From Segatella maculosa DSM 19339 = JCM 15638 (lineage in GTDB: Bacteria; Bacteroidota; Bacteroidia; Bacteroidales; Bacteroidaceae), in contig NZ_KB908322.1 in assembly GCF_000382385.1 (NCBI RefSeq), forward strand, positions 62,001 through 126,000: a stretch of DNA of 64,000 bases, given 5' to 3'. Within the stretch, counting starts at the first letter, position 1; every line of letters begins with the position of its first letter. Positions 25,472-43,493 of the stretch are shown here, piece by piece. Under the pieces are notes generated by a model, which was not told where the DNA came from, did not search any database, and saw only the letters and a list, made by a program, of their open reading frames with translations. The position numbers were made by a program, and so were the translations under genes.

Positions 25472-26599
25472 TTATTTGGTGCCGGCTTTTAGGTAACGAT
25501 AGTATTCACAGGCGGCAAGAAGGAAACCACCGACACCGAAGTTCGTCTCGGAATTGCGGTCGACGATTTGGTCGGGAATAGCCTTTTCGCCAATGGGTTG
25601 CACGTAGCCTACGCGCCCATCGGGCTGGAGTGCCGTGTTTTGTAGGTAGTTCCATGCGCGTTCGACCGTCTTTTTGTACGATTTCATCGGCAGAATTCCG
25701 TTGTTAATTCCCCAAAGCAAACCGTAAGTCAACAGTTCCGTGCCGCTCGTTTCAGGGCCGGGAGCCTGACGAGGATCCATCATTGAGCGCGTCCAATAGC
25801 CTCCGCGCTGTTGCAATTTGGCTGCGGCTGCGGCCAAGCGACGGTATTTTTCGACGAAGAAATCATAGTGTTGATAGTCTTTGGGCAGGTCTTGCAGCAC
25901 CTTTGCCAGCCCTGCAAGCACCCAACCGTCGGCTCTTGCCCAGAAATCTTTCTTGCCCAAATTGGTCTTATGCTTGGGATAAACATACTTGGCATCGCGG
26001 AAATAGAGGCCGGTTTCATGGTCGTACATGAGGCTATCGGTGAAAAGTATGCAGGAATACATCTTGTTCAGATACTTTTGTTCGCCGGTTAGCTTGTACA
26101 TCTTGGTCATTACGGGCATTGACATAAAGAGTGCATCGGCCCACCACCAATAATCTGACTCGGGTGCATCGGCCATATAGCTCATCACTTCCTTGGTCCG
26201 TGTAATCTTATCCTTTGTCGGTGAGATTTTGTAAAGGTCGATATAGGTCTGAAAACAGGTCTGCCAATCGCCGAACAAGACGTGGAATTGATATTCACCA
26301 TAGTGTTGATACTTCCATTTCTTTGGGTCTTTCTCGGTTGCTCCCTGCCATCGATTGTGGATAGCCCATCGCATTGAATAGCCAGTAAAGTCGGATTTGG
26401 GGAAAAGTTGCACCACTTCCATGTTTCCGATGTGGTAAACTGCGTCGTCCCAAAAGGCGCGAGTCTTGTAAGTGTGGTTACTTTGCCAGTTGTTGTTGAC
26501 GCGTTGGATGATTTCTGCAACGCTTTCGGGTGTCTGTTGCTTGGCCCACAGCGGCAGAACACCCAGCCATAAGGCCCAAAGAAGGATTGATTTTTTCAT
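25472..26599 (-). CDS. GH105 unsaturated uronyl hydrolase, exported
   Basis: A 375-residue (alpha/alpha)6-barrel enzyme of the GH88/GH105 group, which removes the 4,5-unsaturated uronic acid left by polysaccharide lyases. The signal peptide is MKKSILLWALWLGVLPLWAKQ, so it is periplasmic. WWWADALFMSMP and FWARADGWVLAGLAKVLQ carry the conserved catalytic aspartates. It is the last gene of the PUL, with its ATG overlapping the stop of the DUF4861 gene (ATGA). Together with the heparinase II/III-like lyase it implies a uronate-containing substrate. GH105 (rhamnogalacturonyl/glucuronyl) is preferred over GH88 by overall sequence style. Confidence 0.85.
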   Translation of the reverse strand: MKKSILLWALWLGVLPLWAKQQTPESVAEIIQRVNNNWQSNHTYKTRAFWDDAVYHIGNMEVVQLFPKSDFTGYSMRWAIHNRWQGATEKDPKKWKYQHYGEYQFHVLFGDWQTCFQTYIDLYKISPTKDKITRTKEVMSYMADAPESDYWWWADALFMSMPVMTKMYKLTGEQKYLNKMYSCILFTDSLMYDHETGLYFRDAKYVYPKHKTNLGKKDFWARADGWVLAGLAKVLQDLPKDYQHYDFFVEKYRRLAAAAAKLQQRGGYWTRSMMDPRQAPGPETSGTELLTYGLLWGINNGILPMKSYKKTVERAWNYLQNTALQPDGRVGYVQPIGEKAIPDQIVDRNSETNFGVGGFLLAACEYYRYLKAGTK

Positions 26600-27783
26600 T
26601 GTTTTTCAATAGTTATTATAAATGAATGTTTGAGATTATCGAGAAACTGCGTGCTTTCCAGTGTCCAATGTGCAAAGGTTGGCACGTCATAACGGCTCCA
26701 AGCCGCTCCGAAGTAATAGGTGAAAGGCTCGCCACGGTAGCCGTTTTTGATGCCCAAAGCATGGTTGAGATGTTCAAAACGTGCGATTTCATCGATTCCA
26801 TCGGGGTAAAGAATGCCTGTGAAAATCAGCGATCCCCACGTCTCAGGTCTATCGGTTGGGTTGGCATAACAGATGAAACGGTCGCCCAAAGTGAGGTCGC
26901 TCTCACCGTGAAGTACTATGCCCGAAGCCAGTTGTATGGGCGATTTGATGCCGTCATACCACACGGTCATGCGGTTGAAATGCGAGCCTTTGTCGAGCGA
27001 AATCAGCCGATGTTCGGTGATACCTTCGGCATTTGGGGCGAAATCAAGGCGCAAAGTGAACCGCAACGGACCGTTATCCAAGATGCGAAAATCACTGTAA
27101 CAATAAGGGAAAATCAGTCCTTTTGGCCCCATTAAAGCAGGCGCTCCGCAACCCAAAGTGGGCCCAACACCGTAGGCATCCATGCCATTTCCGTGGTCAA
27201 GATGAAAGGAAGTGGCGCGGTTGATGGAGTCGGCTTGGGCGTTAAGTCCGGCTTTTCGCAGCGAATCTTCCTGCATATTGCCTCGCCAATCGTCCAAATA
27301 GCGTTTGGAAAACACGGGGGTTGGCGTGTTTTTCGTCCATACATCGATGCCGAATGAGCGTTCGCCTGTCTGCTGAAGTGCAGGCCCATAGACGCGGAAA
27401 CCGATGCGGTCGTTCTCCCAAGCAATGTCATCTTTGCGAATAGGATACTGCATTCCGAAGACCCATAACGGCTGTTTTGCGGGTGCTTTTGGCTGAATAA
27501 GGTAAGTCATCTTGCCCTTTGGAGGCACGCAGACCTCAAAAATCAGTTTGCCATCATGGGTGAGTTGGCTGGGTTGTTCCAGCCCGATTTGATTGAGAAC
27601 ACGCAATGGTGTGGTCTCACTTACGGCCAGTTTGGCTCTTAACGGTGCGGCATCAAGGCTCGCCAACTCATGGCGGGCGTGCGCTAAAGTGTTGGTAACA
27701 CTGACGCGAATGTCTTTTGCTTGCGATGGAAGAAAGCCGGCGAGAAAGGCCAAAAACAAAGTGATATAGTTCTTTTTATTCAT
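26596..27783 (-). CDS. DUF4861 domain protein, exported
   Basis: A 395-residue secreted protein of the DUF4861 family, common in Bacteroidetes PULs with GH105 and lyases; biochemical role not known to me. From ATG 27783 it reads MNKKNYITLFLAFLAGFLPSQAKD, a signal peptide cut after AKD or SQA. The body is beta-rich, with WENDRIGFRVYGPALQ and LDHGNGMDAYGVGPTLGCGAP as conserved-looking stretches. It starts 13 bp after the DUF2264 gene and overlaps GH105 by 4 bp, so it is in the PUL operon. A longer N-terminus from 27810 is possible but would put extra residues before the signal peptide. Confidence 0.8.
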   Translation of the reverse strand: MNKKNYITLFLAFLAGFLPSQAKDIRVSVTNTLAHARHELASLDAAPLRAKLAVSETTPLRVLNQIGLEQPSQLTHDGKLIFEVCVPPKGKMTYLIQPKAPAKQPLWVFGMQYPIRKDDIAWENDRIGFRVYGPALQQTGERSFGIDVWTKNTPTPVFSKRYLDDWRGNMQEDSLRKAGLNAQADSINRATSFHLDHGNGMDAYGVGPTLGCGAPALMGPKGLIFPYCYSDFRILDNGPLRFTLRLDFAPNAEGITEHRLISLDKGSHFNRMTVWYDGIKSPIQLASGIVLHGESDLTLGDRFICYANPTDRPETWGSLIFTGILYPDGIDEIARFEHLNHALGIKNGYRGEPFTYYFGAAWSRYDVPTFAHWTLESTQFLDNLKHSFIITIEKQ

Positions 27784-27796
27784 CTTTCGAGCGTGT

Positions 27797-29047
27797 TTAC
27801 CATTTGTCACGTGTCTGAATGTCGTCAGCCCAGCGGTGATCCTTGGGGAAAGGCTGTCCGTTCCAAGCCTTTACCTGCGTCCATGGCTGTGGTGCTTCGG
27901 TCCAAAACGGGTGATCAGCCGGTAGTCCGAGGGGCATAAAGACCAATGAAGTCATGTAGAGTGAGCCGTTATTCGTATACCAATCGGCCGTTTCGGGCTG
28001 AGAACCGCAGAAGCCGATGGTGAGGAATCCCTGCCGATTGTAGTTCTGTTGCTGATCAAACATGCGGTGCATTACCTGCGTCAAGGCTGCTCTTACCTGT
28101 CCGTTTGTCAGCTCTTTTGGCATCTGTTGATACCAAGCTAATAGCGCCAAAGGCTGCATTGCGGCCATTCGATAGGGCATCGAGCGACCGAAAACGGGGA
28201 AGGTTCCCTCGGGAGATATAAGCCGTTCGAGGATAAGGGCATATCTTTGGGCACGCTTTAAAGCCCGTGCATGGTATTTGAAATAGTCGATCCGACTGTT
28301 CACTTTGGCGTCGGTCATCGCCTGAAGTGTCTCCAAATACATCGGATGAAAGACGTAACTGCTGTAGTAATCAAAGGCAAATACGGGGCCATCGGCATAC
28401 CAACCATCACCCACATACCACTCTTCTACCTTGCGACATGCCGTGTTTACGCGAAAGATATCACACATATTGCCAGCCTTAGCAAGGAAACTTTCGATGA
28501 CAGAAGAGAAGAGAATCCAATTCGTATAGGGTGGGTCAACGCGGCGAAGTTTCTTGAATTCGTTGAAGTATCTCGCCTTGGTTGTCTCGTCAAGTGGCTG
28601 CCATAAGACATCATAAGCACGCAAAAAGCTCTCTGCAATGTAGGCCGCATCGACGAGATTTTGGTCGGAAACGCCCCAACAAAGATAGTCGGAAGAGGCG
28701 GGGTCGACCGCATTTCGATAGCTTGCCAAGGCCCATTGGCGCAACTGTTTGCGCTGTATTCCCTCTGAGGTTCCATCATCTGGCAGGGCCAACCACGGGG
28801 CAATGCCGGCCATCAGCCGTCCGAAGGTCTCCATGTAGACCACCTTTCGGTTGCGATTGTCGAAACTTGGGCTGAACTCTGTCAGCATATTCTGTTGCAG
28901 TTTTCCTTGTGCCATGTTCTCCAATACGGGCCGAGCCATCTGATAGGCCTGTGCTACCCAGTAAGCACGGTCGTTCTGTTTGGTTTTCTTGGCCACGGTT
29001 CCTATGCATACCAGCAGCAAACACAAGGTCGATATCATCTTTTTCAT
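27797..29047 (-). CDS. DUF2264 domain protein, likely glycosidase, exported
   Basis: A 416-residue protein with a signal peptide (MKKMISTLCLLLVCIGTVAKK). The alpha-helical body, with METFGRLMAGIAPWLALP, NWILFSSVIESFLAKAG and YVGDGWYADGP, matches DUF2264. I recall this family being linked to glycoside hydrolase family GH154 (glucuronidase-type), but I cannot confirm that here. The start at ATG 29047 is set by an ATGA overlap with the stop of the upstream lyase gene; longer starts lie inside that gene. It sits in the PUL between the lyase and DUF4861, which suggests that it acts on uronic-acid-bearing oligosaccharides in the periplasm. Confidence 0.8.
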   Translation of the reverse strand: MKKMISTLCLLLVCIGTVAKKTKQNDRAYWVAQAYQMARPVLENMAQGKLQQNMLTEFSPSFDNRNRKVVYMETFGRLMAGIAPWLALPDDGTSEGIQRKQLRQWALASYRNAVDPASSDYLCWGVSDQNLVDAAYIAESFLRAYDVLWQPLDETTKARYFNEFKKLRRVDPPYTNWILFSSVIESFLAKAGNMCDIFRVNTACRKVEEWYVGDGWYADGPVFAFDYYSSYVFHPMYLETLQAMTDAKVNSRIDYFKYHARALKRAQRYALILERLISPEGTFPVFGRSMPYRMAAMQPLALLAWYQQMPKELTNGQVRAALTQVMHRMFDQQQNYNRQGFLTIGFCGSQPETADWYTNNGSLYMTSLVFMPLGLPADHPFWTEAPQPWTQVKAWNGQPFPKDHRWADDIQTRDKW

Positions 29048-30867
29048 CGTAGGCTGTATATGATTTTGTTTCTTGTTTTCTTGTTGTTCACGGTCATCAC
29101 AATGCGATAGAGATGCGGTCCCCACACACTTTTGAGCAAAGAATCCATACGCTCGCTGACATCTTCAATCGTGATGACGACTTGTTGCGATGGATAAAGT
29201 AACCGATGTTTACCAAGTTGCAGGACACCACTTCTGGCAATGGTTGGCAAGATAGGTGTCATAAGCATGATACGCTGTGGTGCTTTCCATTCAGAGAGCC
29301 GGTAGTCTTCGGTTACCACGACTGTTTCACCGGCTTTCAGTTCGACTTTACGTTGCCATGACGTGACTTGTGTCAAGGCAGGATAGGCCGGGGCGATGTC
29401 CATGGCGAGTGATTTCAGATGGTATTCCACGCGGGTGGCACGATAAATCTCGCCTTCGTGCTGGTCGACTCCGTTGATTTTAGGCAGGTTATGATAGGCC
29501 GATTGCATGGTCCACAGCTTGTAACGGTCGGCTGAAAAGGTAGCCAAAGTGTATTCGCCCACGCCGACATCGATGAGTAAAGGCTGTGCATCGGCATAGA
29601 CAATGAACGACCCCACGTCGTTGTGATTGTGGCTTTCGGCATTTGTCCCACCTTTCATAGCAACGTAAAACCCATGCTTTTTATTGTTGTTACGTGCCGT
29701 CATAATTTGCAAATCGGGCAACCACACGTTCTCAAGCAGCGGTTCTGCGGGCTTTTCGGCCTGTAATTGATGGAGATTTGAAAGCAAAAAAAGTTCGCGT
29801 CCCAGTGTGGGGAAATTTCCACTGGCGGCAAAAAGCGTTGAAGGTCGGTGGAAGAAGTCTTTCTCTTTTGCAATCCAAGCCGCGTAACGGCGCATCGTTT
29901 TGTCGCCGGCCCACAATGCGAAAGGATAAAGAACATTGAGTTGGACGACAGAACGGTTGTCGTGGGCGTCGGCGAAATTGACACAATAGCCATTGCCAAT
30001 ATACATTTTATATATATAGGCTGCCATGGCTTTTATTTTCTCCTTGGGGAGCGAGGCCGGAACGGTCAGATTGGCTGCTTGCATCAGTTGTAGGCAATCG
30101 AAAAGCGAGGCCGCGGCACGGTCCCAATAGAATGTTCCCTCGTCACAACCGCCATCTGATGGGTATCCATCGGTGAAATACTGCAAAGCCGCCGTGATTT
30201 GTCGTAGGGCTTCGGCCTTTCTTGCCCCGTCGTTCTCACTGATCAGCACGGCCGTCAGCCAGTTGGAAGAAATCCAAGGCGTCCAGTTCATGCGGCTGTG
30301 TTTCCACCAATAATCGGTCTTTAAGGCCGGTATCAGGAGTCGACGCCGCACTTCCTTGTCGATGGTTTGCCTTAAATCGCTTCCCAAGGCTTCTCCCAAC
30401 ATATAGTTTATCCATGCAGCTAAGCCTGCAGTCTCGGCATTGAAGAGATCTACATTTTGGTCGGTTGACAGCGGACGGTCGTGTCCGTAGTGGGCCGGAA
30501 TGCCCCACCATGGTTCGCTAAACAGGTTCTCCAGACCGCATTTCAAGTCGGGAATGAGACGCCCTTTACCCTCGATTATCTCGGCAAGTGCCAGAGCGGC
30601 CAACCGAGTTCGCTTTTGAAAGCACAGCCGTTCATAGTGGGTTCGGTTACCCGTGCGCTTGAATTCGCCGAAGACGGAGTCGGGAATCGTTGGCCAAGGT
30701 TGGCCGGCATATTGTGCACCATAGGCGATATAGCTTTGCCGCATGGCTTGAGGAACGGAGTTTCTCCAATAAGTTGATGATGCACGGGGCATAGAAAGCT
30801 GTGCAGAAATGGCCGTGTATGCCATGCACAGCAAAAGCAGTAGAAGTGTTCTCGGCCTTGTCTTCAT
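29044..30867 (-). CDS. Heparinase II/III-family polysaccharide lyase, exported
   Basis: A 607-residue exported enzyme. Signal peptide: RTLLLLLLCMAYTAISAQ. The N-terminal half is an (alpha/alpha) toroid (WWKHSRMNWTPWISSNWLTAVL). The C-terminal half is the beta-sandwich of the Hepar_II_III fold, with GGTNAESHNHNDVGSFIVYAD, in which the NHND asparagine/histidine region is the catalytic patch. Lyases of this fold cleave next to uronic acids and leave unsaturated ends for GH88/GH105 enzymes, which fits the GH105 gene in the same operon. The exact PL family and substrate cannot be assigned by eye. It starts 29 bp after the GH43 gene. Confidence 0.82.
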   Translation of the reverse strand: MKTRPRTLLLLLLCMAYTAISAQLSMPRASSTYWRNSVPQAMRQSYIAYGAQYAGQPWPTIPDSVFGEFKRTGNRTHYERLCFQKRTRLAALALAEIIEGKGRLIPDLKCGLENLFSEPWWGIPAHYGHDRPLSTDQNVDLFNAETAGLAAWINYMLGEALGSDLRQTIDKEVRRRLLIPALKTDYWWKHSRMNWTPWISSNWLTAVLISENDGARKAEALRQITAALQYFTDGYPSDGGCDEGTFYWDRAAASLFDCLQLMQAANLTVPASLPKEKIKAMAAYIYKMYIGNGYCVNFADAHDNRSVVQLNVLYPFALWAGDKTMRRYAAWIAKEKDFFHRPSTLFAASGNFPTLGRELFLLSNLHQLQAEKPAEPLLENVWLPDLQIMTARNNNKKHGFYVAMKGGTNAESHNHNDVGSFIVYADAQPLLIDVGVGEYTLATFSADRYKLWTMQSAYHNLPKINGVDQHEGEIYRATRVEYHLKSLAMDIAPAYPALTQVTSWQRKVELKAGETVVVTEDYRLSEWKAPQRIMLMTPILPTIARSGVLQLGKHRLLYPSQQVVITIEDVSERMDSLLKSVWGPHLYRIVMTVNNKKTRNKIIYSLR

Positions 30868-30896: not shown

Positions 30897-32012
30897 TCAG
30901 GGCTTGATGCTCCATTGGTCAGTCCATTGAATGACGGGCTTCCCATCTTCAAACGTTATCGGCAACCATATATAGCGAGCATCGCTCGGTTGTTTCGGTC
31001 GCCAAATATCAGCCATGAAGACGAAACGTGGGTCTTTCGACGTACCAATTTGCAGGATATAGGTGCCCTGACCGCCGAAGGTAAGTTCGGACTTTGGCCC
31101 GCGACAAGGGTTGTCTACCTGCGTCCAAGGGCCTTGAATGCGTTTGGCAAAGAACATGCGGGCCTTATTGGGTGCCCAACCTGTGCAGCCGCTGGTGATC
31201 ATCCAATATACACCTTTATATTTAAAGAGCGTCGGTGCCTCGTTTTGTCCACCCGGAGCCATTCGCCAATAGCGCCCCGTGTGGTGCAGATAGTCATCGG
31301 TAAGCTCGGCAATATGTAGGGTCAGATTGTCTTCGGAAGAGAAGATATGGTAGGCTTTCCCGTCATCATCGACGTAAACCGTCTGGTCTCTGGCCATCTG
31401 CCCCTGTGCATAATCGCGTTGAACAAAAAGACCTTTGCGAATCAGTTCGCGCCATTCGGGCGTCCACCATTTCATTTGTCGGCCTGCATTATAGGTCGTA
31501 CTGTCGAGCGAACCAGCCCAATCTTGAGGCCAGATGCCGGGACATGAGCGCGAAGAATAAAGGTATTGATAGGGGCCTTCGGGCTTGTTGGCGACGGCAA
31601 CGCCATAGCGTGCGGCAGCATATCCGCGTCCTTTCAGTTCCAAATGAAACCACATTACATACCGACGGGTTTTGGCATTATAGACCACCTTCGGCCTTTC
31701 GATGATACAACCACGTTCTATGTCATTGTCTTTCTCATTGGAAACAGAGAGAGCAACGCCGCGGTAAGTCCAGTTGGCAAGGTCAGTTGAACTGTAACAA
31801 GTGACACCCACCATAGCCGTACTCGTCGTGTCGGCCTTGTGTTCGCCAAACCAATAGAAGGTCTTGCCCCGTTTCAGGATACCTCCTCCATGCGCATTGA
31901 TGTGAATGCCGCGGTTATCGGGCCACAAAGCGCCGGGGCGAATGTTGTTTCCGGCCTTGATGTTGCCCGAAAGACACGTCAGAAGTGCTGCTAACGCCAA
32001 GATGGTTCTCAT
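30897..32012 (-). CDS. GH43-type glycosidase, resembles exo-beta-1,3-galactanases
   Basis: A 371-residue exported five-bladed propeller enzyme (signal peptide MRTILALAALLTCLSGNIKA). INAHGGGILKRGKTFYWFGEHK near the N-terminus and IERPKVVYNAKTRRYVMWFHLE recall the GH43_24-type exo-beta-1,3-galactanases, in which the usual N-terminal catalytic aspartate is not in the normal place; here it is AHGGG. The glutamate in ERPKV would be the acid. NEAPTLFKYKGVYWMIT is a further family stretch. The subfamily is my recognition, not a search. Its ATG overlaps (ATGA) the original stop of the broken GH16 gene upstream, so the two were made as neighbours in one operon. Confidence 0.75.
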   Translation of the reverse strand: MRTILALAALLTCLSGNIKAGNNIRPGALWPDNRGIHINAHGGGILKRGKTFYWFGEHKADTTSTAMVGVTCYSSTDLANWTYRGVALSVSNEKDNDIERGCIIERPKVVYNAKTRRYVMWFHLELKGRGYAAARYGVAVANKPEGPYQYLYSSRSCPGIWPQDWAGSLDSTTYNAGRQMKWWTPEWRELIRKGLFVQRDYAQGQMARDQTVYVDDDGKAYHIFSSEDNLTLHIAELTDDYLHHTGRYWRMAPGGQNEAPTLFKYKGVYWMITSGCTGWAPNKARMFFAKRIQGPWTQVDNPCRGPKSELTFGGQGTYILQIGTSKDPRFVFMADIWRPKQPSDARYIWLPITFEDGKPVIQWTDQWSIKP

Positions 32013-33407
32013 TCTGCTTTGTTTTGATAGACCCTTACATAGTCGATATAATACTTGATGGGGAAGGCCGACTCGTCGATATGCCCACCATTGTCACCGC
32101 CTAAAGCAAGGTTCAGCCAAATTAAATTGCCGAAGCCGGGAATGGAATTGGCGAAGGGATTCTGCCCACTGCCAAATGGCCGGCCACGAGCCGCTTACCG
32201 TGGGGATTTTCGCCCGCACTTCGACCGTTCCATAGCGGTAAGTAAAACGGCTCTGCATCGAGGCACTGGTGTATTTTGCGTTGGCGCGATTCTTCTTCCA
32301 GTCGCTGCTGCCGGCCTGATAGTTGGGATTGCTCACGTTTTGCCTGCGAGCCGTGATGACAAGGTGGCCCGAACCATCGAGCGCGGCATTGCCTTCTTTC
32401 ATGTAGTATTGATCTTCGTGGTTGCGCTGAAAGCCCTCCTCAAACTTCCACTTGGCAGGGTCGGGCTGGCCGGTGCCCTCGAATTCGTCGCTCCAAACGA
32501 GCACCTTCTTGCTTTGTTCGGTCGTTTCGGCCTCCGGGTCGTCAACAACCACGTCGACATCATAGAACGAGAACTCCGACATATGGAAGTAATTGCGGTT
32601 GCCACTGGTTGAAGTGACGAGGAAACGGAGGTGCTTGAACTTCTTTCCCGGACGGAAGAACGTCGAGTTATAGTCGGTCTTTCGGCTCGCAGGAAGGCCC
32701 GAAAGCGTGGCCACCGTCGTCCAGTTCGTACCGTCGTCGCTGACGAGCAGGTCGGCCGATGTGGGGAAACCGTCGGCGTTTCCCGTGTCGCGCGTGGTGT
32801 ATTTGATGGCGAAATCCTCGTGTTCTTCATTGAAATTGATTTGGATGTATTGCGGTAACGGCTTTTGTGGCGACGACCAACGCGTGTGGAAGAAGGTCGA
32901 CGTGTTGCCGTCGATAAGGTTTCTGATGGGGCCTTCCGACGGTTCCTGATTGTCGGTGCTCAGCTGCGAGGCCGTCAGCGTGACGCGCATGCGGCTCCGT
33001 TCGGCGTAACTTGCAGGCGCCTTGCCCGAGCGCGCCTTCACTTCCACGGGCGAGGCGGCCGTTCCGTCGGCGTTGTAAGCTTGGAATGTGAACGTATAAT
33101 CGCCGTATTTCTGCAGCGTGTTGCTGATGAGCAGCTCCGAAGTGTGCCGGGAAACCACCTGCGTCAGTCTCCGACCGTCAGCCGGGTTCACGTATGAAAC
33201 CTTCATGTATTCATAGGTGGCCGCCACGGGTGCGCTCCAGTAGAGCTTGATTTGTCCCGGTAGCGCCTCGGAACGAATCTCCGACGCCGTCAACGTCTTG
33301 GGTTCACCGAGGTAGCCCGTGCGCTCCATGTTCGTGATGTTGTCGGTGCACGACGCGAGGAGCATCATCACCGGCAGGGCAAATAGAAATGTCATATATC
33401 GTTTCAT
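32009..33407 (-). pseudogene. GH16 glycosidase gene broken by internal deletion
   Basis: Lipoprotein signal from ATG 33407 (MKRYMTFLFALPVMMLLASC, lipobox cysteine at residue 20), a fibronectin-like domain, a discoidin-like (F5/8C) domain with LIDGNTSTFFHTRW, then GH16 starting at VLVWSDEFEG. The fold begins normally (YGTVEVRAKIP, GSWPAIW), but the reading frame then runs into FHSRLRQFNLAEP and stops at 32094. In another frame, up to the TGA at 32009-32011, the true GH16 C-terminus appears: NPFANSIPGFGNLIWLNLAL, GGDN and IKYYIDYVRVYQ. Roughly 100 residues that should carry the catalytic EIDxxE motif are missing at about 32172, and the frame is shifted. It was probably a surface endo-acting enzyme before the deletion. 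Confidence 0.88.
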
Positions 33408-33509
33408 GTCGTTAAGTTTTAAGTGATACATCTGTATAAAATCGTGTTGTCTGCTTTATAAACTCGTGCTGTCTGCACGAAAGAGCCGCATCTTTCGAGG
33501 TCCGCTACA

Positions 33510-33628
33510 GTGTTCCAAGAAAGTTCCATGCTTTGGAACACACAGTTCCTCCTATTGGAACGCACAGTTCCATATACTGGAACTCACAGTTCCATGTACT
33601 GGAACACACAGTACCAAGGCATGGAACT
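33510..33628. repeat. 22-bp tandem array with CACAGTTCC...TGGAAC units, inside the PUL
   Basis: Four clear units (CACAGTTCCTCCTATTGGAA, CACAGTTCCATATACTGGAA, CACAGTTCCATGTACTGGAA, CACAGTACCAAGGCATGGAA) stepping by 22 bp, plus degenerate flanking copies. GTTCC and GGAAC within each unit can pair. It occupies the 333-bp gap between susD and the broken GH16 gene, so it would be transcribed in the PUL mRNA. It is related to the array at 5.9-6.05 kb. Confidence 0.88.
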
Positions 33629-33740
33629 TTTGTGAAACTGCATATCTGTGTCGATAGATACGCCCGGCCCTGCCGTTCGCCACGGTTTGGCAACGGCGCA
33701 GGCAAGGCTGAAAGTGCGGCTTCTGCATGATGTTGGCGGG

Positions 33741-35432
33741 TCAATAGCCCGGGTTTTGCGTGAAACCTGAGCCTGTGTGCTTCATCATCTCGCTGTTGGA
33801 GATGGGCCAGAAGTAGAGCTTGTCGTCCCAGATACGGCTGACCGTGTGGCGTGTATAGGCGAGTGTCCCGTCGGCTTTCTTCGTGATTTTCATCTCGACG
33901 ATATCCTTGTGGCTCGCGCCTTCGCGCCAACGGCGGATATCGTTGTAGCGATGTCCCTCGAAAGCGAGTTCCACCATACGTTCGTTCTGATACTTCTTCC
34001 AGAAGTCATCTGCGCTTAATCCCGTTGGGAGGGCAGGCATGTTGACGTCCACACGGCTGCGGATGACGTTAACCGCCTCGCGTGCCGACATGGGAAGGTC
34101 TGGTGTGACGGCGTCGGCGCTTCCGCTGTATTTGAACATGGCTTCGGCATAGTTGAGGTAGAACTCGCCCAAGCGGTAGGCCACCCATGAGTGGCGCTTG
34201 GAGTTGCCGTTTACCGAAGAGATGTTGACCGTGCCATCGAGCAGCTTCTTCAAGTAGTAGCCCGTGGGCGTAGCACCCACTTTGGGTTCGCCGTTGCTTC
34301 CGCCGTAATATGTCTCAAGTGCAGCTGCATTGTAAGACGGCCAATTCTTTTCACCGTTCACGGCAATGGTCATGGCAAAGCGCGGGTCGCGCCCTTCGTA
34401 AGGCTTTTCGGGGTCATAGCCGCTGCCGGCCTCGTTCCACAACTTGCCCGTGGCCCGCATTTCGTAGGCATCGACGAGCGTCTGTGTGGGGCAGTTGCCG
34501 GAGTTTCCGTTCTCAACGCCCATCGGATAGTTGCGTCTTTCCAAGTCGTTCAGGTCTCCGATGCGACGGGCCATAATGACTTCTTTGGCTTTCCAGTTAT
34601 CCGTTCCCCACAGTTCGGCGTATTTGCCAAGGCTCACGCCGTAGGCTGCGCACGAGTCGATGACGGCCTTGGCGGCCAGTGCGGCCTGATGATAACGCTC
34701 GGCAGTCTCCGCGCCAAAGAGCGGACTGGCGGCGTAGAGCAGCGTACGTGCCTTCAGCGCCAGCACGGCCAGTTTCGTCACACGACCCGTTTCGCCTGCT
34801 GCGGCGTCGTCGGTCAGTCCGGCGTAACTGGCAGGCAGGTGGTTCAATATCTCGTCGCACTCTTTCACGACAAAGGCCATCACGTCTTGCGCCGGCGTTC
34901 GGCCGAGGGCGTTGGCTTGTGCCTCGGTGAGCACTTCGGTGGTGAAGGGAACGGCTCCGTAATACTTCACCAGCAGCGCATAGTAGTAGGCTCGCAGGAA
35001 CCGAACCTCATAAGGCAGGCGGTTGAAGCGTACCATTTGATTCTTATAATCCTTGTTGAACTTGTAATCGGAGAAGTCGCATTCCGGATAATGGGCAAGG
35101 AAATAGTTGGCTTCGCGAATGGGAGCATAGTAGCCGAAGAGCGAGGGCGTATTCTTGGAACTTAGTGATCCGTTCGTGAAATAGTTCACTTGGCTCGACT
35201 TCCACGCATATTCGGCCTCGTCGCAAGCCGAAGCCTGCATGCCGCCATCAATCATTCCGTAGTCGTAGTCGAGATAGCTATAGATGTTGGTCACGAAGCC
35301 CACGGTGTTGTCGAAGTTCTTGAACACATAGTCTTTATTGTAGTTGGAGAACTCGCGATAGTCCAATTCATCGCCGCACGATGCGAACAGCGCCAGGCAA
35401 AGGGCTCCTCCTAATATATTCTTGATATTCAT
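33741..35432 (-). CDS. SusD/RagB family outer-membrane lipoprotein (second pair)
   Basis: A 563-residue surface glycan-binding lipoprotein that caps its SusC partner. Lipoprotein signal: MNIKNILGGALCLALFASC, cysteine 19. The SusD fold is seen in YAPIREANYFLAHY, PYEVRFLRAYYYALLVKYYGAVPF, and the C-terminal ELAFEGHRYNDIRRW with YFWPISNSEM near the end. It directly follows the second susC (26 bp) on the same strand. A 333-bp gap with a tandem repeat then separates it from the broken GH16 gene. It works in import of oligosaccharides cut at the cell surface. Confidence 0.93.
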   Translation of the reverse strand: MNIKNILGGALCLALFASCGDELDYREFSNYNKDYVFKNFDNTVGFVTNIYSYLDYDYGMIDGGMQASACDEAEYAWKSSQVNYFTNGSLSSKNTPSLFGYYAPIREANYFLAHYPECDFSDYKFNKDYKNQMVRFNRLPYEVRFLRAYYYALLVKYYGAVPFTTEVLTEAQANALGRTPAQDVMAFVVKECDEILNHLPASYAGLTDDAAAGETGRVTKLAVLALKARTLLYAASPLFGAETAERYHQAALAAKAVIDSCAAYGVSLGKYAELWGTDNWKAKEVIMARRIGDLNDLERRNYPMGVENGNSGNCPTQTLVDAYEMRATGKLWNEAGSGYDPEKPYEGRDPRFAMTIAVNGEKNWPSYNAAALETYYGGSNGEPKVGATPTGYYLKKLLDGTVNISSVNGNSKRHSWVAYRLGEFYLNYAEAMFKYSGSADAVTPDLPMSAREAVNVIRSRVDVNMPALPTGLSADDFWKKYQNERMVELAFEGHRYNDIRRWREGASHKDIVEMKITKKADGTLAYTRHTVSRIWDDKLYFWPISNSEMMKHTGSGFTQNPGY

Positions 35433-35458: not shown

Positions 35459-38332
35459 TCAGAAACCTAATACCACGCCCAGCGAAACGGAACGCGTGAC
35501 GGGGTAATCGGCGCCATAGCATTCGGGATCGGCACGTTTGATGTGGTCGAGACACAGCAGGTCAATACCACGAACGTAGAACTTGGCATTCTTAATGAAA
35601 CGTGAATTGCTGAACAGCGTTGCTGGAAGATGGTAGTAAACCTCTACGTTGCGCAGCTTCAAGAACGAGCGGTCGGCCAGCCAAACGGAGTTGACCGTAT
35701 AGTTGTTCTGATTGTCTTCGGAGGAAAGACGAGGGTAAAGCGCCGTGTTGGCGGTCTCGGGTGTCCAGCGATTCTCGAAATAATACTGTCCGATATTCGT
35801 ATTGTTGACCAGCGGACGATAGACGGACTTCGTGTTCAGTATGGCGGTATAGTTGGCCACACCTTGGAACTGTGCGAAGAAGCCGACCCCCTTGAACTCC
35901 ATTCCGAGATGGAAAGCGTAATAGATTTCGGGGCAAACGGTGTTGTAACCCATCTTCACGTAGTCGTCACCATCAATGACATTGTCTCCGTTCTGGTCCT
36001 TAAATTTGATATCACCCGGCTTGGGATTGGTGCCCAAACGCTGCACGGGACTGTGGTCGATGTCTGCCTGATCGGTGAAGAAGCCAATGGCCTGCAAGCC
36101 GAAAATCTGATTGACAGGGTTCCCGGTGCGCTTCTCATAGTCGTAAGCCCGCGGTTCTTCATATTCCTCCTTAATCTTATTCTTGGCCAAGGTGTAGTTC
36201 ATTCCGGCCCGAAGTTGCAGGTCTTTGGCAATCTCCTTATGATATTGTGTGCCCCATTCGAAGCCATAACTATCGACGATACCACCGTTCACGTAGGGAT
36301 GACTGATGCCAACGACGTCCGAGTTCTTGCCCGATGAGGCCACCCAAATATCAGTTCTACGCTGGTAATAGCCGTCAATGGTTAGGTCGAGTGTGCCGAA
36401 GAGCGTGGCATCCAAGCCTACATTATATTTATAGGCCTTCTCATGTGTGGAGTTCATTGCAGCCAAACGGCCCTCTTTCCAACCGCTATAGGCATCGTAA
36501 TTCGACCCAAGGTTGTAGCCTCCGCCACCCGTGAATACTTGCTCCCAGTAGCCTTGTTCGGGGATATGGTCCAAGTTGATGATGCCCCATGAGGCCCGAA
36601 CTTTCAAGAAGTCCACGAAGCGCATACCCTGCATGAAGTCTTCCTTAGAGAGCAACCACGCTGCTGAGAGTGTGGGAGAGAAGGCCGTCCGGTGTCCGGG
36701 AGCCAGTCTGTTAGAAGCCGCCAGGCCCAAGGACAGGTCGACAAAGTACTTCTCTTTGTAACCATAGTGGTTGTAGAGTGACGCCGACGTACGGTAGATG
36801 GTGTTGTTCTGTCCGTTGGCATTGCGGAATTCATAGTTCCACATGAGTACCGATTGCAGCTTGTGTTCACCGAAACTACGGTCATAATTGGCCCCGACCC
36901 CAAAGTTGAAGTTACGGTTCTGCCAGTCCAGTTTGCTGTCGGCACTCATGTTGCTGTCCGAACCAGCTTTGTATTGTGTGATACCGGTGGGCTCGCCGTT
37001 ATTCCAACTGCCTGCCGAAGCCATGCCGTATTGATAGCTTCGCGTGTGGTTTTCCCAATAGGCGGCGATATTGTCATAGGCAAAGCACGTCCAAGCACTC
37101 AATCCTTGTGTGACGGACGACAGGTCTTGCTTGAGTGTTGCGTCTGCAAAGAGGGCGCGGGTATGCGCTTTACTATAAGCACGTCCTTGAGTCAGCGCCA
37201 CAGGATTATAGTAACCGGTCCACGTTGTGTTGCCACCCCAGAGTCCGCTTTCGGTCTTTATCGGGAAAGCTGCGGCCGGAACGGTGTATATCTTGTCCCA
37301 AAGTGCATCGCTCGATAGACCGGGACGCGATGCCTCCAACAGCACTCCGTCTAAGTTAACGGCCAGTTTCGTGGTCGTAGTCAGGTCAATGTCGAGGTTG
37401 GTTCTCAGGTTGGCCTTGTTGTATTTGTTCTGTGTTGAGTAGCCTTCGTTCTCGTTCGGGTGGGCAATAAAGCCTGCATTGTTGACCAAGTTCACCTGAG
37501 TATAGTAGCGAAGACGGCTGCCTCCACCTCGGAAACTCAGGTTGAAGATGTCGCTTGCTCCATGGTTTCGGAACGTTTCGGCTATCCAATCAACATTCGG
37601 ATATAGGTAAGGATACTTCCCAGTTTGGAAAGCATTGAGTTCGTTGGCGGTGTAACGTGGTGCCCTGCCATCATTGACATAGGCTTCGTTCAAGGCCGTG
37701 GCATAGTCGTAACCGTTGACGAATTGCGGCCGACGTGCCTCCCATGTGAAACCGTGGTCATACGTGAACTTGATTTCACTGAAGTTATATCGGCCCCGCT
37801 TCGTGATGATGTTGATGGCCCCGTTGGCTCCTTTATAGCCGTAGAGTGCTGTTGCCGGCGCATCTTTCAAGACGATAACGCGCTCCACTTCCTCTGGACT
37901 GATGTTCGTAATGTTGCGTTCGATGCCGTCAACCATAATCAATGGCGACGAACCATTGAGTGATTGGAGACCACGAACAAAGAAAGTTGGCTCGAAAGAA
38001 GCGTAGTCTCCTGTTCCTTGCAGGGTTGTTAAGCCGAGCACCTGACCGTAAAGTGAGTTACCTATATTCTTCGAAGAGCGCCGGTTTATGTCGTTACTCA
38101 ATGCTACGGACATGGTACTTTCGCCCAAAGTCTGTTCTATTCCGAATCCTAAATTGACCGGTTGCGAAGCATAGCTACCGGCAGTTTGCACGTTACAAGT
38201 GTAAGAGAAAAGGGTACCTTCTCTGTGTTGTGAAGCATGACTGCCGGTTTTCAGCGTGTCGGTCTGTGCCTGCGCTGCCATACCGACTGCCAATGCCAAG
38301 ACAAATGTTATATGTCGTTTCATTTTATTCAA
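35459..38332 (-). CDS. SusC/RagA family TonB-dependent receptor (second pair), no N-terminal regulatory-like domain
   Basis: A 957-residue outer-membrane transporter. After a signal peptide (KRHITFVLALAVGMAAQAQ) it goes almost straight to the plug (NIGNSLYGQVLGLTTLQG, FFVRGLQSLNGSSPLIMVDG, VIVLKDAPATALYGYKGANG) and then to the 22-stranded barrel. The CarboxypepD_reg-like domain seen in the first SusC of this locus is absent; only about 60 poorly conserved residues precede the plug. The barrel ends in SVSLGVVLGF. It imports substrate with the SusD at 33741-35432. The first ATG (38332) is taken; ATG three codons later is possible. Confidence 0.93.
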   Translation of the reverse strand: MNKMKRHITFVLALAVGMAAQAQTDTLKTGSHASQHREGTLFSYTCNVQTAGSYASQPVNLGFGIEQTLGESTMSVALSNDINRRSSKNIGNSLYGQVLGLTTLQGTGDYASFEPTFFVRGLQSLNGSSPLIMVDGIERNITNISPEEVERVIVLKDAPATALYGYKGANGAINIITKRGRYNFSEIKFTYDHGFTWEARRPQFVNGYDYATALNEAYVNDGRAPRYTANELNAFQTGKYPYLYPNVDWIAETFRNHGASDIFNLSFRGGGSRLRYYTQVNLVNNAGFIAHPNENEGYSTQNKYNKANLRTNLDIDLTTTTKLAVNLDGVLLEASRPGLSSDALWDKIYTVPAAAFPIKTESGLWGGNTTWTGYYNPVALTQGRAYSKAHTRALFADATLKQDLSSVTQGLSAWTCFAYDNIAAYWENHTRSYQYGMASAGSWNNGEPTGITQYKAGSDSNMSADSKLDWQNRNFNFGVGANYDRSFGEHKLQSVLMWNYEFRNANGQNNTIYRTSASLYNHYGYKEKYFVDLSLGLAASNRLAPGHRTAFSPTLSAAWLLSKEDFMQGMRFVDFLKVRASWGIINLDHIPEQGYWEQVFTGGGGYNLGSNYDAYSGWKEGRLAAMNSTHEKAYKYNVGLDATLFGTLDLTIDGYYQRRTDIWVASSGKNSDVVGISHPYVNGGIVDSYGFEWGTQYHKEIAKDLQLRAGMNYTLAKNKIKEEYEEPRAYDYEKRTGNPVNQIFGLQAIGFFTDQADIDHSPVQRLGTNPKPGDIKFKDQNGDNVIDGDDYVKMGYNTVCPEIYYAFHLGMEFKGVGFFAQFQGVANYTAILNTKSVYRPLVNNTNIGQYYFENRWTPETANTALYPRLSSEDNQNNYTVNSVWLADRSFLKLRNVEVYYHLPATLFSNSRFIKNAKFYVRGIDLLCLDHIKRADPECYGADYPVTRSVSLGVVLGF

Positions 38333-38362: not shown

Positions 38363-40288
38363 TTACCAACCCGGGTTCTGTGTCAGGCCATAGCCTTTGT
38401 TTACCTCTGCAGTCGGGAATGCAGAGAGATACCATTTCGGGTCGAACGAGGTCCACCATGCACGGCTCTTGTTCTTCAACGGCACGCGCTCATAGCGGAA
38501 ATGTGTCGGGAAAGGCTTGCTGTTTTCATTGCCAAGGTAGGGCGTGTTGTTGTCTGTGCCGTCCGGGTTCAGCCGATAGATGCGCAATGCATGCAAGGTC
38601 TTGCCGAAGAGGTCGGCGCGACGGTAGCGTATCATGTCATAGAAACGCGACTCTTCGAAGCCGAATTCGCAGGCTCGTTCGCGTAGAATGGCTTCTATCA
38701 GGTTGGCTTTCTTTGTGTAATCCGTCGCAGGATCAGAGGCTACCAGTCCTTTCAGGCCCACGCGGGCACGCACCTTGTCAACCTGTTCGATGGCTTTAGC
38801 AGTCTGTCCCGTCTGTGCCAATGCCTCTGCATAAATCAAATGCATCTCTGCCATGCGCAGGTAAGGCCAGCTGAGCACATGGTTCTTCGAGTCGGCCTTG
38901 TTCATATAGAACTTATTGTTGGCCATACCTGTGGCATATTGTCCGCTCTCCGTGCTGATGCCTGAGCCTTCGTTACCGTTCACCCAAGCCTCCACTTGCC
39001 GGCCACTCATATTCCCATTGGCGTCCATACGGTTCAGAGTGCCGTTCACGATGATGGTTTCATAGAGGCGAGGGTCGCGGGTCAGCTCTTTAGGTTTGCC
39101 CGGAACAATGAACATTCTGTCCAAGTTGCCGTGTCGTTCCAGTTCGTCATAATCGAACGGACTGCCGTCCTTCCACCCGAACATCTCCTGATATTCCTCC
39201 GTAGGCGTGTAACCTCCGAGACCATTCCATTCAGAAAAGAGGTATTGCCAGTCTTGAGAATCCTGATATTTCACACGGGTTGAAATCAGCACTTCGGTTG
39301 TTCCGCGGTCAGAATAGGCCTTACGGAAGGCGGCCCGATAGGCGCCCGGCGTGTTGTTGTCAGCCTGTACGAGGGCATACCAGCCCTGACTGTTAACCTT
39401 ATCGAAGAAAGCTTTGCAGGCATCGACCACAGTTTGCCAGCGAGCCTCTTGATAGTCGCCATACCATGCCTGCCGTTTCTCATTGGCCTCTTGGTTACCT
39501 GTCGTGCAATAAGGCGTGGCATTGTTGAGCAACGGAGACGCTGCAAAGTCGAGAACCTTGGCTTTTAGCCCCATCACACCGGCTTGCGTGAAGCGTCCTT
39601 CCCAGTTGGATAGGTCTGAACCCAATGCCCATGGCAGTTTAGGAGCAGCCTCGTCCAAGAGTCCGACAATGAATTTCACGGTCTCATCTACCGTGGTACG
39701 CGGAATTTCATAAACGGCATCCGTCCCGTCATAGGATTTCCTGACAAGCGGAAGTCCCCCATAATTGCGGAAAAGGTCAAAGTAACGCGAGGCGATGATA
39801 CTCTTTGCTTCGGCCTTCAAGCGTTCTTTTTCGCTTACTTCCATGTTCGGTGTGTGGTCTACGTTTTCCAAGAAGATGTAGCAGGCGCGCACGGTTTCCC
39901 ACACATTATAGTTCATATAGGGGAAGCGTCCGTGGTCGTCTCCACCCTTAGATGGGGCCGTATATGCCCCGGCATAATATTGTCTGTTCACTTCGTCCCA
40001 GTCGCAATGACTGTGTATGCAGTCAGACAGCGCGTCGATGACGCCCGTATTCATGCCTTGGGCCTCACCTCCTGTCCAGCAATAGGGCAAACCGTAGTGC
40101 AGCTTTCCATAGCACGACCATAGAAAATTACGTGTGTATTCGGGATTATTGAACACGGTATCTTTGGTAACATCATTGCCCGGTGCTTTGTCAAGGAATG
40201 CATCTCCGAATTTAATTTGGTCGGTACAGCTCGCAACGGAAGCGCCTAACAGCAGCACTGCACCGAGAAGAATATGATAATGTTTCAT
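38363..40288 (-). CDS. SusD/RagB family outer-membrane lipoprotein (first pair)
   Basis: A 641-residue lipoprotein, signal MKHYHILLGAVLLLGASVASC with the lipobox cysteine at 21. SusD-type TPR-rich fold: WETVRACYIFLENVDH, RYFDLFRNYGGLPLVRKSYDG, and a C-terminal RERACEFGFEESRFYDMIRYRRAD region ending in NKGYGLTQNPGW. It follows the first susC by 46 bp and precedes the second susC by 30 bp, so all four genes are one operon. It binds the target glycan and delivers it to SusC. Confidence 0.94.
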   Translation of the reverse strand: MKHYHILLGAVLLLGASVASCTDQIKFGDAFLDKAPGNDVTKDTVFNNPEYTRNFLWSCYGKLHYGLPYCWTGGEAQGMNTGVIDALSDCIHSHCDWDEVNRQYYAGAYTAPSKGGDDHGRFPYMNYNVWETVRACYIFLENVDHTPNMEVSEKERLKAEAKSIIASRYFDLFRNYGGLPLVRKSYDGTDAVYEIPRTTVDETVKFIVGLLDEAAPKLPWALGSDLSNWEGRFTQAGVMGLKAKVLDFAASPLLNNATPYCTTGNQEANEKRQAWYGDYQEARWQTVVDACKAFFDKVNSQGWYALVQADNNTPGAYRAAFRKAYSDRGTTEVLISTRVKYQDSQDWQYLFSEWNGLGGYTPTEEYQEMFGWKDGSPFDYDELERHGNLDRMFIVPGKPKELTRDPRLYETIIVNGTLNRMDANGNMSGRQVEAWVNGNEGSGISTESGQYATGMANNKFYMNKADSKNHVLSWPYLRMAEMHLIYAEALAQTGQTAKAIEQVDKVRARVGLKGLVASDPATDYTKKANLIEAILRERACEFGFEESRFYDMIRYRRADLFGKTLHALRIYRLNPDGTDNNTPYLGNENSKPFPTHFRYERVPLKNKSRAWWTSFDPKWYLSAFPTAEVNKGYGLTQNPGW

Positions 40289-40334: not shown

Positions 40335-43300
40335 TTAAAAGCTTGCTTTCAGGCTGATGGCAAACGAACGGGTCAGCGGATAGTTGGGGCGGTCGCTGGT
40401 TCTTGACTCCGGGTCGCCCCATTTGAACTTGGAGAATGTCAGCAGGTTGTAGCCGCTGAGTGCCAAAGTGAGGTCGCGCAGCTTGATGGTATTCATCCAA
40501 GGGAAGTGGAAATGATAGGCCACCTGCATGGTCTTCAGGCGCAGATAGGCGGAGTTGACCTCATAAAGCGTCGAAGAGGCGTAGTTATTCGAGGCATGCA
40601 ACTTTGTGGCACGCGGATAACGAGCGTTCGGATTGGGGTTATCAGGTGTCCACACGTTGTCGAATTGATATTGCAACAAGGCCTTTTCCTGCTGGTCGCC
40701 CAAGGGCTGACGGAAGCAATCTGCCAGCATTCGGGTCACGTTCCAAGCCGCTGTCCACTGCGTATTGAACTCAAAATCCTTGTATTGGAAGCCAAGATTG
40801 AAACCGGCAGTATATTCCGGGTCGTCCGTATGGCCCAAGGAATAGGAGTAATCATTGTTATCTATGATACCATCGCCATTAAGATCGGCGTACACTGCGT
40901 CGCCGTTTTCAAGCGCAACCGGGTGAGTTGGCAGGTGTTTTCCATGCTCGGCCATGTACCGTGCGTCGGCATCTGCGCTGTAAAGTCCCCAGAATTGGCG
41001 GATTGAACGCGAGCCGATGCGGTGCCCTTTCTGGTAAAGCCAGTCATAATTCTGTGGAGCTTCCATCATCTCCTTGATTTCGTTTTGGTTATAAGAGAGA
41101 TTGGTTCCCACCCAATAGCGGAGATTCTTGCCGATAAAGTCCTGCCATTTCAGCGAAACTTCATAGCCCCAGCTGTTCACTTCGCCGAGGTTTGCGGCCG
41201 GAAGTGTAAAGCCCAAGATGCCCGGAGCAATGTAACTGTTGAGCAAAATATCCTTGCGGTGCTCGTAATAGTAGTCGAAAGTGGCTTTCAATCTGCTGTT
41301 GAGGAAGTTGGCATCTACGCCATAATCCTGCTTGAACGACTTCTCCCAAGTCACCTCGGGATTGTGTTTTGCCCCCTCGATGGCGCCATTCAGGTAGTTT
41401 CCTGTGTTCGTTCCGAAGTTATAAGTGTTGTTTTTATTGCCATAAGCTGACCAACCACTCTTCAAAACATAGGGGTCGTCGGTGTACATGAAGCGTGAGC
41501 CATTGAGCTGATCGTTACCGACAAGCCCCCAAGAAGCACGCAGTTTCAAATAGTCGACCACCTTTTTTAGGGGCTTGAAGAACTGCTCTTCACTGATGGT
41601 CCAGCCCACCGAACCGGCCGGAAACAGCCCATATCGCTTGCCGGGAGCAAAGTTTTCCGAACCGTTATAGCCCACATTGAACTCTGCCATGTAGCGGTTT
41701 GCATAGTCATAAGTAACGCGGCTGACCAGTCCTACATAGCCATGAGGAATGTCGGAATACTGACTTGGGTAGTAGGTTTTTGACTGGTTGTAGAGCAAAA
41801 GTGCCCCCACATGATGCTGTCCAAAGCCACGTGTGTAGTCCAAACTGGCTTCCATGTACCAGTTGCGTCCCTTTCCGAACTCCTCCGAATAGCCCAATTG
41901 GGAGTCTTGTCCGTTCTTTCGGTATTCAATGACATTGCCGCCTACTTTCACGGGATTGTAGGTTGCCACGCCACCCGGCCGTTTCTTTGTGATATAATAG
42001 GTACTGTTGTAAGACCCTTTCACCTTGAATGAGAGGCCTTTCGTAATCATGTTGAGCTTCTGCCTCAGCATCACGTCGGCATTGAGCACGTTGGTATTGC
42101 GCGAAGTATAGCCCATTCCGTAGTAGGAAGAAAGCCCGCTGATGCCGGTGAATGGCAGATGATTGCCGTCTTCATCGGGGTCTGTAGTTGTCAAAACATA
42201 GCGTCCGCCAATCACACCCGGGCTTGAGAACGGTGTAGTATTATAGAGTTTGCGAAAGAGTTGCTGCCCATCTTCGGTGGAAATCGGCGTGTTCTTGGTG
42301 TCAGCACGGCCTCCTATGTTCACCGAAATCGTGGTGGTCTTTGTTACGTCGAAGTCGAGATTGGCGCGGTAGTTGAAGCGTTTGTAGTTGAAATTGAAGT
42401 CATAGTCGAGGGCTTGCTGCTTGAAAAGGCCGCCTTGGGTGAATGCACCAAGCGACACAAAGTAGCGCACGTTGTTGGTTCCTCCCGAGATACTCACGTT
42501 GTGTTGCGACTGGAATGCCGCCTTTTTCAGGCAATAATCCATCCAATCCGTATCGGGATAGCGAATAGGATCGCTGTGATCACGCAGCTTCTGCACCACA
42601 GCATCCGAGAAAAGTGGCGTCGCTCCGTCGTTCTTCATCATCTGATTGTGATACAAGGCATACGAATATGAGTCGGCAAGTTTCAGCAGATTGGTCGGCA
42701 AAACCACGCTCGCACTGGTATTGACCGATATGTTTGCCTTGCCTTCCTTACCGCGTTTGGTCGTCACAAGAATGACACCATTGGCGCCACGTACACCGAA
42801 TACGGCCGTAGCCGAGGCGTCTTTGAGCACCGTTACGCTCTCTATTTCGTTCGGATCTATCTCACTGAAGTCGCGTTCCACACCGTCTACCTGAACCAAA
42901 GGAGCCGAGTTGGCCCACGTGGCTTTGCCGCGAACGAAGAGAGAAGCACCGTCGGCACCCGGCTCTCCCGAGTATTGTACGGACGAAATGCCCGGAACCG
43001 AGCCCGCCAACATGTTCGTAATAGAAGCTGTTGGCACCTTGGTCAGCAACTCACCATTGATGCCTGAGATGGCTCCCGTGACCGTTACTTTCTTCTGAGC
43101 ACCGTAAGCTACGACCTGAACTTCTTGCACTGTCAGTGCATCGTCAGCCATAACGATGTGCATTTCGCGCCCCGGAGTGGCCTTTACTTTCTTGGTTGAG
43201 TAGCCCACAGAGGTAATCGTGATAAGTTCGTTGGCGTGGGTTTGCACGACAAACTTACCATCGATGTCGGTAATCTTCACGGCCTTGCCGCCGATACTGA

Positions 43301-43493
43301 TGGTTGCTCCGATTACGGGTTCACCGTTATTGTCAACCACGACGCCCTTTACAGTCTGCATTTGCTGCTGGACGGAAAGAAAATGTGGGTCTTGTGCGGC
43401 ACTTGTCGAGCACAAAGGCAACACCAATCCCGTTGACAGCAGGGCTGCCATACACATTTTTACGGAAGGAGATATCCAATAAGGATGTTTCAT
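40335..43493 (-). CDS. SusC/RagA family TonB-dependent receptor (first pair)
   Basis: A 1052-residue outer-membrane transporter, the first gene of the PUL. Signal peptide region MCMAALLSTGLVLPLCSTSAA, then a CarboxypepD_reg-like domain (VKGVVVDNNGEPVIGATISI), a TonB-box-like VQEVQVVAYG, the plug (ASITNMLAGSVPGISSVQYSG, LVQVDGVERDFS, VTVLKDASATAVFGVRGANG) and the barrel ending LTRSFAISLKASF. Full length for the family. The 5' spacer is about 800 bp and full of repeats. A near-match -7 box lies about 109 nt upstream, so the mRNA leader would be about 100 nt. Confidence 0.95.
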   Translation of the reverse strand: MKHPYWISPSVKMCMAALLSTGLVLPLCSTSAAQDPHFLSVQQQMQTVKGVVVDNNGEPVIGATISIGGKAVKITDIDGKFVVQTHANELITITSVGYSTKKVKATPGREMHIVMADDALTVQEVQVVAYGAQKKVTVTGAISGINGELLTKVPTASITNMLAGSVPGISSVQYSGEPGADGASLFVRGKATWANSAPLVQVDGVERDFSEIDPNEIESVTVLKDASATAVFGVRGANGVILVTTKRGKEGKANISVNTSASVVLPTNLLKLADSYSYALYHNQMMKNDGATPLFSDAVVQKLRDHSDPIRYPDTDWMDYCLKKAAFQSQHNVSISGGTNNVRYFVSLGAFTQGGLFKQQALDYDFNFNYKRFNYRANLDFDVTKTTTISVNIGGRADTKNTPISTEDGQQLFRKLYNTTPFSSPGVIGGRYVLTTTDPDEDGNHLPFTGISGLSSYYGMGYTSRNTNVLNADVMLRQKLNMITKGLSFKVKGSYNSTYYITKKRPGGVATYNPVKVGGNVIEYRKNGQDSQLGYSEEFGKGRNWYMEASLDYTRGFGQHHVGALLLYNQSKTYYPSQYSDIPHGYVGLVSRVTYDYANRYMAEFNVGYNGSENFAPGKRYGLFPAGSVGWTISEEQFFKPLKKVVDYLKLRASWGLVGNDQLNGSRFMYTDDPYVLKSGWSAYGNKNNTYNFGTNTGNYLNGAIEGAKHNPEVTWEKSFKQDYGVDANFLNSRLKATFDYYYEHRKDILLNSYIAPGILGFTLPAANLGEVNSWGYEVSLKWQDFIGKNLRYWVGTNLSYNQNEIKEMMEAPQNYDWLYQKGHRIGSRSIRQFWGLYSADADARYMAEHGKHLPTHPVALENGDAVYADLNGDGIIDNNDYSYSLGHTDDPEYTAGFNLGFQYKDFEFNTQWTAAWNVTRMLADCFRQPLGDQQEKALLQYQFDNVWTPDNPNPNARYPRATKLHASNNYASSTLYEVNSAYLRLKTMQVAYHFHFPWMNTIKLRDLTLALSGYNLLTFSKFKWGDPESRTSDRPNYPLTRSFAISLKASF

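Follow-up and report, generated by a model that had tools for sequence, protein, structure and literature searches.

The window analysed here, a stretch of 64,000 nucleotides from Segatella maculosa DSM 19339, holds a putative galactan PUL of the type II arabinogalactan kind that appears to have lost its initiating surface endo-enzyme and to have kept a complete surface glycan-binding lipoprotein (SGBP) joined to a non-catalytic GH16 half. A probability of about 80% is given to this reading. The event at its centre, an internal deletion of about 300-330 nt with a frame shift that would have removed the GH16 catalytic core, is well supported by the sequence as read in one assembly. It lies in a minus-strand ORF (32094-33431) that starts at the ATG at 33431, or at the in-frame ATG at 33407, and encodes a product of 445 aa. 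The parts of this gene are listed below, with reference to G024, an orthologous locus of the same genus.

32532..33407, minus strand: SGBP part with signal, DUF4959-like region and F5/8C CBM32-like domain, assigned by PF00754, identity, pLDDT and fold matches
32508..32531, minus strand: fusion linker AETTEQSK, placed by alignment to G024; relatives have the SGBP stop and the N-terminus of a separate gene here
32169..32507, minus strand: GH16 N-terminal half, KVLVWSDEFEG...GSWPAIWQ, 63-68% identical to the G024 GH16 and its sister in the tree
32162..32168, minus strand: deletion junction, 7 nt long; relatives carry about 102-113 codons at this point, ExDxxE among them
32094..32168, minus strand: out-of-frame C-terminus of 24 residues with a premature stop at 32094-32096
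32009..32161, minus strand: orphaned GH16 C-terminal tail in the original frame, its TGA overlapping the GH43 ATG, with 37 of 46 residues identical to the G024 GH16

The ORF reads through the family pattern WSDEFEG...GSWPAIWQ, continues for 24 residues that do not resemble GH16 and then stops. Another frame of the same strand, NPFANSIPGFGNLIWLNLALGGDNGG...YYIDYVRVYQNKAE, which includes NPFANS...GGDNGG, encodes the conserved tail; it runs for 50 residues without an internal stop and ends at a TGA (32009-32011) that overlaps the ATG of the GH43 gene (32010-32012). Both readings had been made in a first-pass annotation and were recovered here, and its view that the tail frame is the original one is supported as well.

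The distance between the two halves is what identifies a deletion. Between WPAIWQ and NPFANS 7 nt are left; the interval from WPAxW to NPF is longer than this by a single codon. The G024 GH16 has 107 residues (321 nt) from WPAIWQ to NPFSNT, about 314 nt more than the broken gene, and the WPAxW-to-NPF spacing is 103-114 residues in 14 related GH16 proteins, which puts the missing piece at about 300-330 nt, ExDxxE included. These 14 come from a set of 15 distinct ORFs in which the two landmarks are separated by 60-140 residues; one ORF, encoding a distant GH16 of the same genome (on C14) with 69 residues between the landmarks, was set aside. A pattern search for ExDxxE was positive in 12 of the 14, and the remaining two carry GEIDMLEY, read by eye. 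The first-pass annotation had proposed that the segment holding the catalytic EIDxxE motif is missing, through a real deletion of about 300 bp plus a frame offset and not through a base-call error, and these comparisons support a missing segment of that size and the offset.

A tblastn search of the window with the G024 GH16 matched the two halves (query 212-335, E 1e-48; query 435-488, E 1e-21) and gave one further chance match (query 5-29, E 0.86); the catalytic core was not found in the window by this search. PF00722 matches the broken gene at positions 28-63 of 175, over cut-off (E 3.3e-6), and the GH16 matches of an NCBIfam search were all sub-threshold. Descent from GH16 is indicated by the presence of both family regions and by a tree grouping with G024 (96/96), and the ExDxxE that follows WPAxW in an active GH16 is absent. 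With this catalytic motif missing, the GH16 half is not expected to function as an enzyme. Programmed frameshifting as a way of joining the two halves was rejected since the core would still be absent, and a one-base sequencing error was rejected since about 100 codons are gone.

The first-pass annotation had taken the whole of 32009-33407 for the gene of a GH16 enzyme, and this part of it has to be revised, as most of the stretch is not GH16. The gene is a chimera, in which residues ~9-300 of the 445-aa product form a complete SGBP that includes a CBM32-like domain. In all 20 orthologous loci examined below the SGBP has a gene to itself, of 284-315 aa and in the same position, and only the window joins SGBP and GH16 in one frame. 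A candidate second fusion, a 629-aa open frame in the G582 locus, was rejected: a stop codon splits it into two genes. The SGBP part has the marks of its family, namely a lipoprotein signal with a Cys after LAS (LASC, read by eye), a sugar-binding domain (PF00754, F5/8C, E 7.5e-19, over cut-off) and a place beside SusD, and it shares 49-50% identity with the SGBPs that G024 and G038 encode as separate genes. Its match to DUF4959 reaches 26.5 bits, under the cut-off of 32.9; the same domain is over cut-off in the G038 SGBP and is not listed for that of G024.

An AlphaFold model of the 445-aa product gave pLDDT block means of 81-97 over residues 41-300 and values of 28-61 beyond residue 300. The latter cannot be counted as evidence on the fold, because the GH16 rows were not lined up with the stub: 11 of them had been aligned with the SGBP region, with WPAxW at column 406, the WPAxW of the stub standing at column 703, and the stub was modelled without relatives. 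The G024 GH16, modelled from a proper alignment of 12, gave 80-96 over residues 221-488, with one block at 65, and poor values over its first 217 residues. In Foldseek, the top matches of the SGBP-GH16 model are large sialidases with poor superposition (rmsd about 17), and single galactose-binding CBM32 modules match with a target-normalised TM of 0.69-0.83. Since the gene is a fusion with a complete SGBP, its frame would still encode a useful protein, and the likely product is a functional SGBP with an inactive GH16 half attached.

The comparison with related loci relies on overlapping genome samples. Two same-genus samples (299 and 398 genomes) and a sample of relatives (397 genomes) contained, besides the window, only G024, G038 and G466 as close orthologues, G466 appearing from its coordinates to be the UBA2725 locus; a family sample of 399 genomes added G715 and the loci of other genera. 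A pattern scan of genome contigs gave no relative, an alignment search with the SGBP found two loci, and a search of a plasmid collection gave no match. Lower-identity SGBP-like matches in other PULs (G108, G147, G174, G208, G390, G418) were left out after inspection of the locus, and six SGBP matches at 33-36% identity (G616, G634, G768, G780, G850, G893) fall outside the compared set.

An intact GH16 lies directly after the SGBP in 13 of the 20 orthologous loci (G024, G582, G701, G705, G568, G925, G660, G674, G728, G587, G714, G755, G687). Three others (G592, G785, G732) keep only the second-type GH16 of the locus, which in G592 is fused to GH43. The G038 and UBA2725 loci have no GH16 after the SGBP and carry a distant intact GH16 5' of SusC1, and in G715 and G901 no GH16 was found in the locus, both genomes having one elsewhere. 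With the window included, some intact GH16 is therefore present in 18 of 21 loci, those without being the window, G715 and G901. Alignment to intact GH16 genes of related PULs, which the first-pass annotation had suggested as a check, upholds the deletion. It had named an active protein of the same short form in close relatives as a finding that would speak against its reading; the short form occurs in 0 of the 20 loci.

The PUL of G024 has the same order as the window (SusC1-SusD1-SusC2-SusD2-SGBP-GH16). It differs by separate intact genes for the SGBP (291 aa) and the GH16 (488 aa), the latter with its own N-terminus and a BT_3987-like domain, and by a GH43 gene placed upstream, in a neighbouring PUL. 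The PULs of G038 (a Prevotella sp. MAG) and UBA2725 have the backbone closest to that of the window and share the succession of SGBP and GH43, but the interval between these two genes is without GH16, and their intact GH16 5' of SusC1 is only distantly related. Searches by tblastn with each of the two GH16 types found no GH16 remnant 5' of the SusC1 gene of the window. Two side observations concern the same position and the second GH16 type. In two relatives (L026, 387-1421, and L074, 2971-4608) an intact but distant GH16 stands immediately 5' of SusC1 and the SGBP is followed by none, a pattern that resembles the replacement of one GH16 by another. Five Bacteroidaceae-level loci (L107, L109, L110, L111, L113) have the second-type GH16 and GH43 fused in one protein of 629-663 aa.

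Phylogenetic trees were used to place the stub and the locus. GH16 trees make the stub sister to the G024 GH16, with supports of 97/90 and 96/96. The GH16 of G705, G568 and G925 join its branch at 90/87 and that of G701 at 87/48, so that five intact first-position GH16 (with G024) share this weakly supported branch, and the other eight first-position GH16 group with the second GH16 type of the locus at 93/90, under a midpoint root only. As the first-position GH16 are split over the tree, the 13 are the same by place, and one orthologous group is not implied. The backbone tree (SusC2+SusD2+SusD1, with three outgroup loci) puts G024 basal to the window plus (G038, UBA2725), with supports of 100/99 or better, which makes it probable that a GH16 stood here before the window lineage arose. 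Most simply, the ancestor would have had a GH16 after the SGBP, which disappeared entirely in the line of G038 and UBA2725 and was broken in the window. Against G024, pN/pS is 0.35 for the SGBP, 0.24 for the stub and 0.16 for the tail. The low values of stub and tail, with the stop-free tail, fit a recent event, although they date the loss poorly because they span the whole G024 divergence, with saturated synonymous sites (pS 0.92-0.93).

The remaining frames of the PUL, including two SusC/SusD pairs and the exo-enzymes, are complete.

30897..32012, minus strand: GH43 subfamily 24-like exo-beta-1,3-galactanase, complete frame (6eug, E 6.5e-137)
29044..30867, minus strand: PL33-like heparinase II/III lyase (8r75 and 8r6z, E 1.1e-87)
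27797..29125, minus strand: DUF2264 / GH154 family protein (8oi4, E 6e-165; 9nwf, E 1.9e-113)
26596..27810, minus strand: DUF4861 / BT3233-family PUL protein
25472..26599, minus strand: GH88/GH105-like unsaturated uronyl hydrolase (PF07470; 5noa, E 1.4e-141)
33741..35432, minus strand: SusD2
35459..38332, minus strand: SusC2
38363..40288, minus strand: SusD1
40335..43493, minus strand: SusC1

The GH43 is closest to solved exo-beta-1,3-galactanases, and its E105, E258 and Q315 sit in motifs aligned with those of the solved GH43_24 chains, which by sequence match gives the Glu, Glu, Gln set of this subfamily. The sequence of 6eug is that of 6eui, which PMC7939473 names BT3683. The entries 8r75 and 8r6z are those named in the PL33 paper PMC11848413, and the GH154 family is now proposed to consist of glucuronate dehydratases (PMC12269599). 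This gene content (GH43_24, PL33, GH154, GH88/105) fits a type II arabinogalactan PUL acting on a glucuronate-bearing substrate. Galactanase and glucanase activity are both conceivable for the lost GH16: many of the solved proteins nearest to it bear the name laminarinase or beta-1,3-glucanase, and the galactan specificity of GH16 arose in distinct branches according to PMC7419316.

From these genes we infer the ancestral state, the loss of activity in the cell, the substrate and the reliance on fragments made by others. Neighbouring ancestral genes for the SGBP lipoprotein and a surface GH16 would have merged into one reading frame in the lineage of this strain, and a deletion of ~300-330 nt, before or after the fusion, either order being admissible, would have removed the GH16 core and shifted the frame. 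The surviving frame would make a complete SGBP with a non-catalytic GH16 half-domain. Such a cell would still bind, import and use galactan fragments, which is expected since the transport and exo-enzyme frames are complete, and would no longer cut long chains with this enzyme. The bacterium may live on fragments released by neighbours. B. thetaiotaomicron reportedly gained keystone ability once an endo-galactanase had been engineered into it. A reliance on neighbours is reasonable because a keystone enzyme role on arabinogalactan has been published, that of B. cellulosilyticus on gum arabic arabinogalactan (PMC8406133; keystone also PMC7533333). The published keystone system resembles the present one by its GH43_24 and GH154-family enzymes (BT3683, BT_3677), and a genotype without the surface endo-enzyme would be the recipient type there. 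It differs in that here the broken endo-enzyme gene persists, fused to the SGBP.

The deletion may be real and yet of little consequence, the polymer being imported whole or cut by the exo-GH43 or by the GH16 on C14. This alternative is compatible with the preferred reading and deserves consideration, even if it is doubtful. PF00722 finds in this genome only the stub and the distant C14 protein, and the G024 GH16 used as query against the genome retrieved the two halves and nothing else. The C14 GH16 has an EIDLLE motif and sits in another PUL with two SusC/SusD pairs; it could in principle compensate for the lost enzyme. The absence of a GH16 from the loci of G715 and G901, which have the PUL, points in the same direction, as does B. 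thetaiotaomicron Bt-8736, described in PMC5967196 as growing on inulin without a surface endo-enzyme. The same source, however, describes levan use as requiring such an enzyme; B. cellulosilyticus has a keystone role on arabinogalactan, and an intact GH16 is kept in 18 of the 21 orthologous PULs, a count that includes the window.

An artefact of the assembly or of the population, with an intact gene in the strain and a contig that represents a false join or a minority allele, is unlikely. The assembly is in 60 contigs, which leaves room for such an error, but its completeness is 99.88%, its contamination 0.23%, and the remaining PUL frames are open. For k-mers to collapse, the lost piece would have to be flanked on either side by a long direct repeat; with the G024 gene standing in for this piece, the longest string shared within 80 nt of the corresponding ends is 8 nt, which argues against a collapse. 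A new non-catalytic role of the GH16 half-domain, such as giving the SGBP an additional surface for binding, would agree with the open frame, the in-frame fusion and the pN/pS of the stub, but is very unlikely for a remnant that lacks about half of the GH16 domain, has its last 24 residues out of frame and has no counterpart in the 20 orthologous loci.

The loss of the endo-enzyme from this PUL, the reading preferred above, is a fresh instance of an already known kind of event, and its worth lies in the comparative series and in a clear growth test. More tentatively, the loss of a shared-good enzyme might be seen here in progress. The costly secreted cutter would be destroyed, the fused binding protein, the transporters and the private exo-enzymes would remain, and a degrader of polymers would become a feeder on fragments; the same place would have been emptied several times in the family, in some cases with another GH16 at a different point of the locus. 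The division between bacteria that cut dietary arabinogalactan and those that feed on its fragments can depend on single surface enzymes. A PUL that is complete by gene count and lacks the first cutter would be misannotated as polymer-degrading. The series of loci in which the GH16 is intact, replaced, broken or absent is a ready comparison between endo-enzyme loss and a shift from polymer to oligosaccharide growth. No description of this broken gene was found in the titles and abstract beginnings of the literature searched.

Three further observations were made in the window. A 340-aa ORF with a TTG start (16858-17880) matches the N-terminal domain of alpha-L-rhamnosidase with 24.9 of the 25 bits of the cut-off, just under it, and is possibly a truncated rhamnosidase. 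The spacing between SusD2 and the SGBP is 309 bp; in G038, G024 and UBA2725 the two genes lie at most 33 bp apart, with a 1-bp overlap at the other extreme. A tandem array of 22-bp self-complementary repeats, TGGAACNCACAGTTCCATATAC, occupies 33534-33628, between SusD2 and the SGBP-GH16 gene; folded as RNA, the stretch 33500-33640 has z = -5.2. The exact 15-base core of the repeat occurs in 19 copies at 6 places in the genome and in 0 copies in G024, G038 and G457, the backward-pattern control being 0, and a second array of related repeats spaced 23 bp apart lies at 5926-6032.
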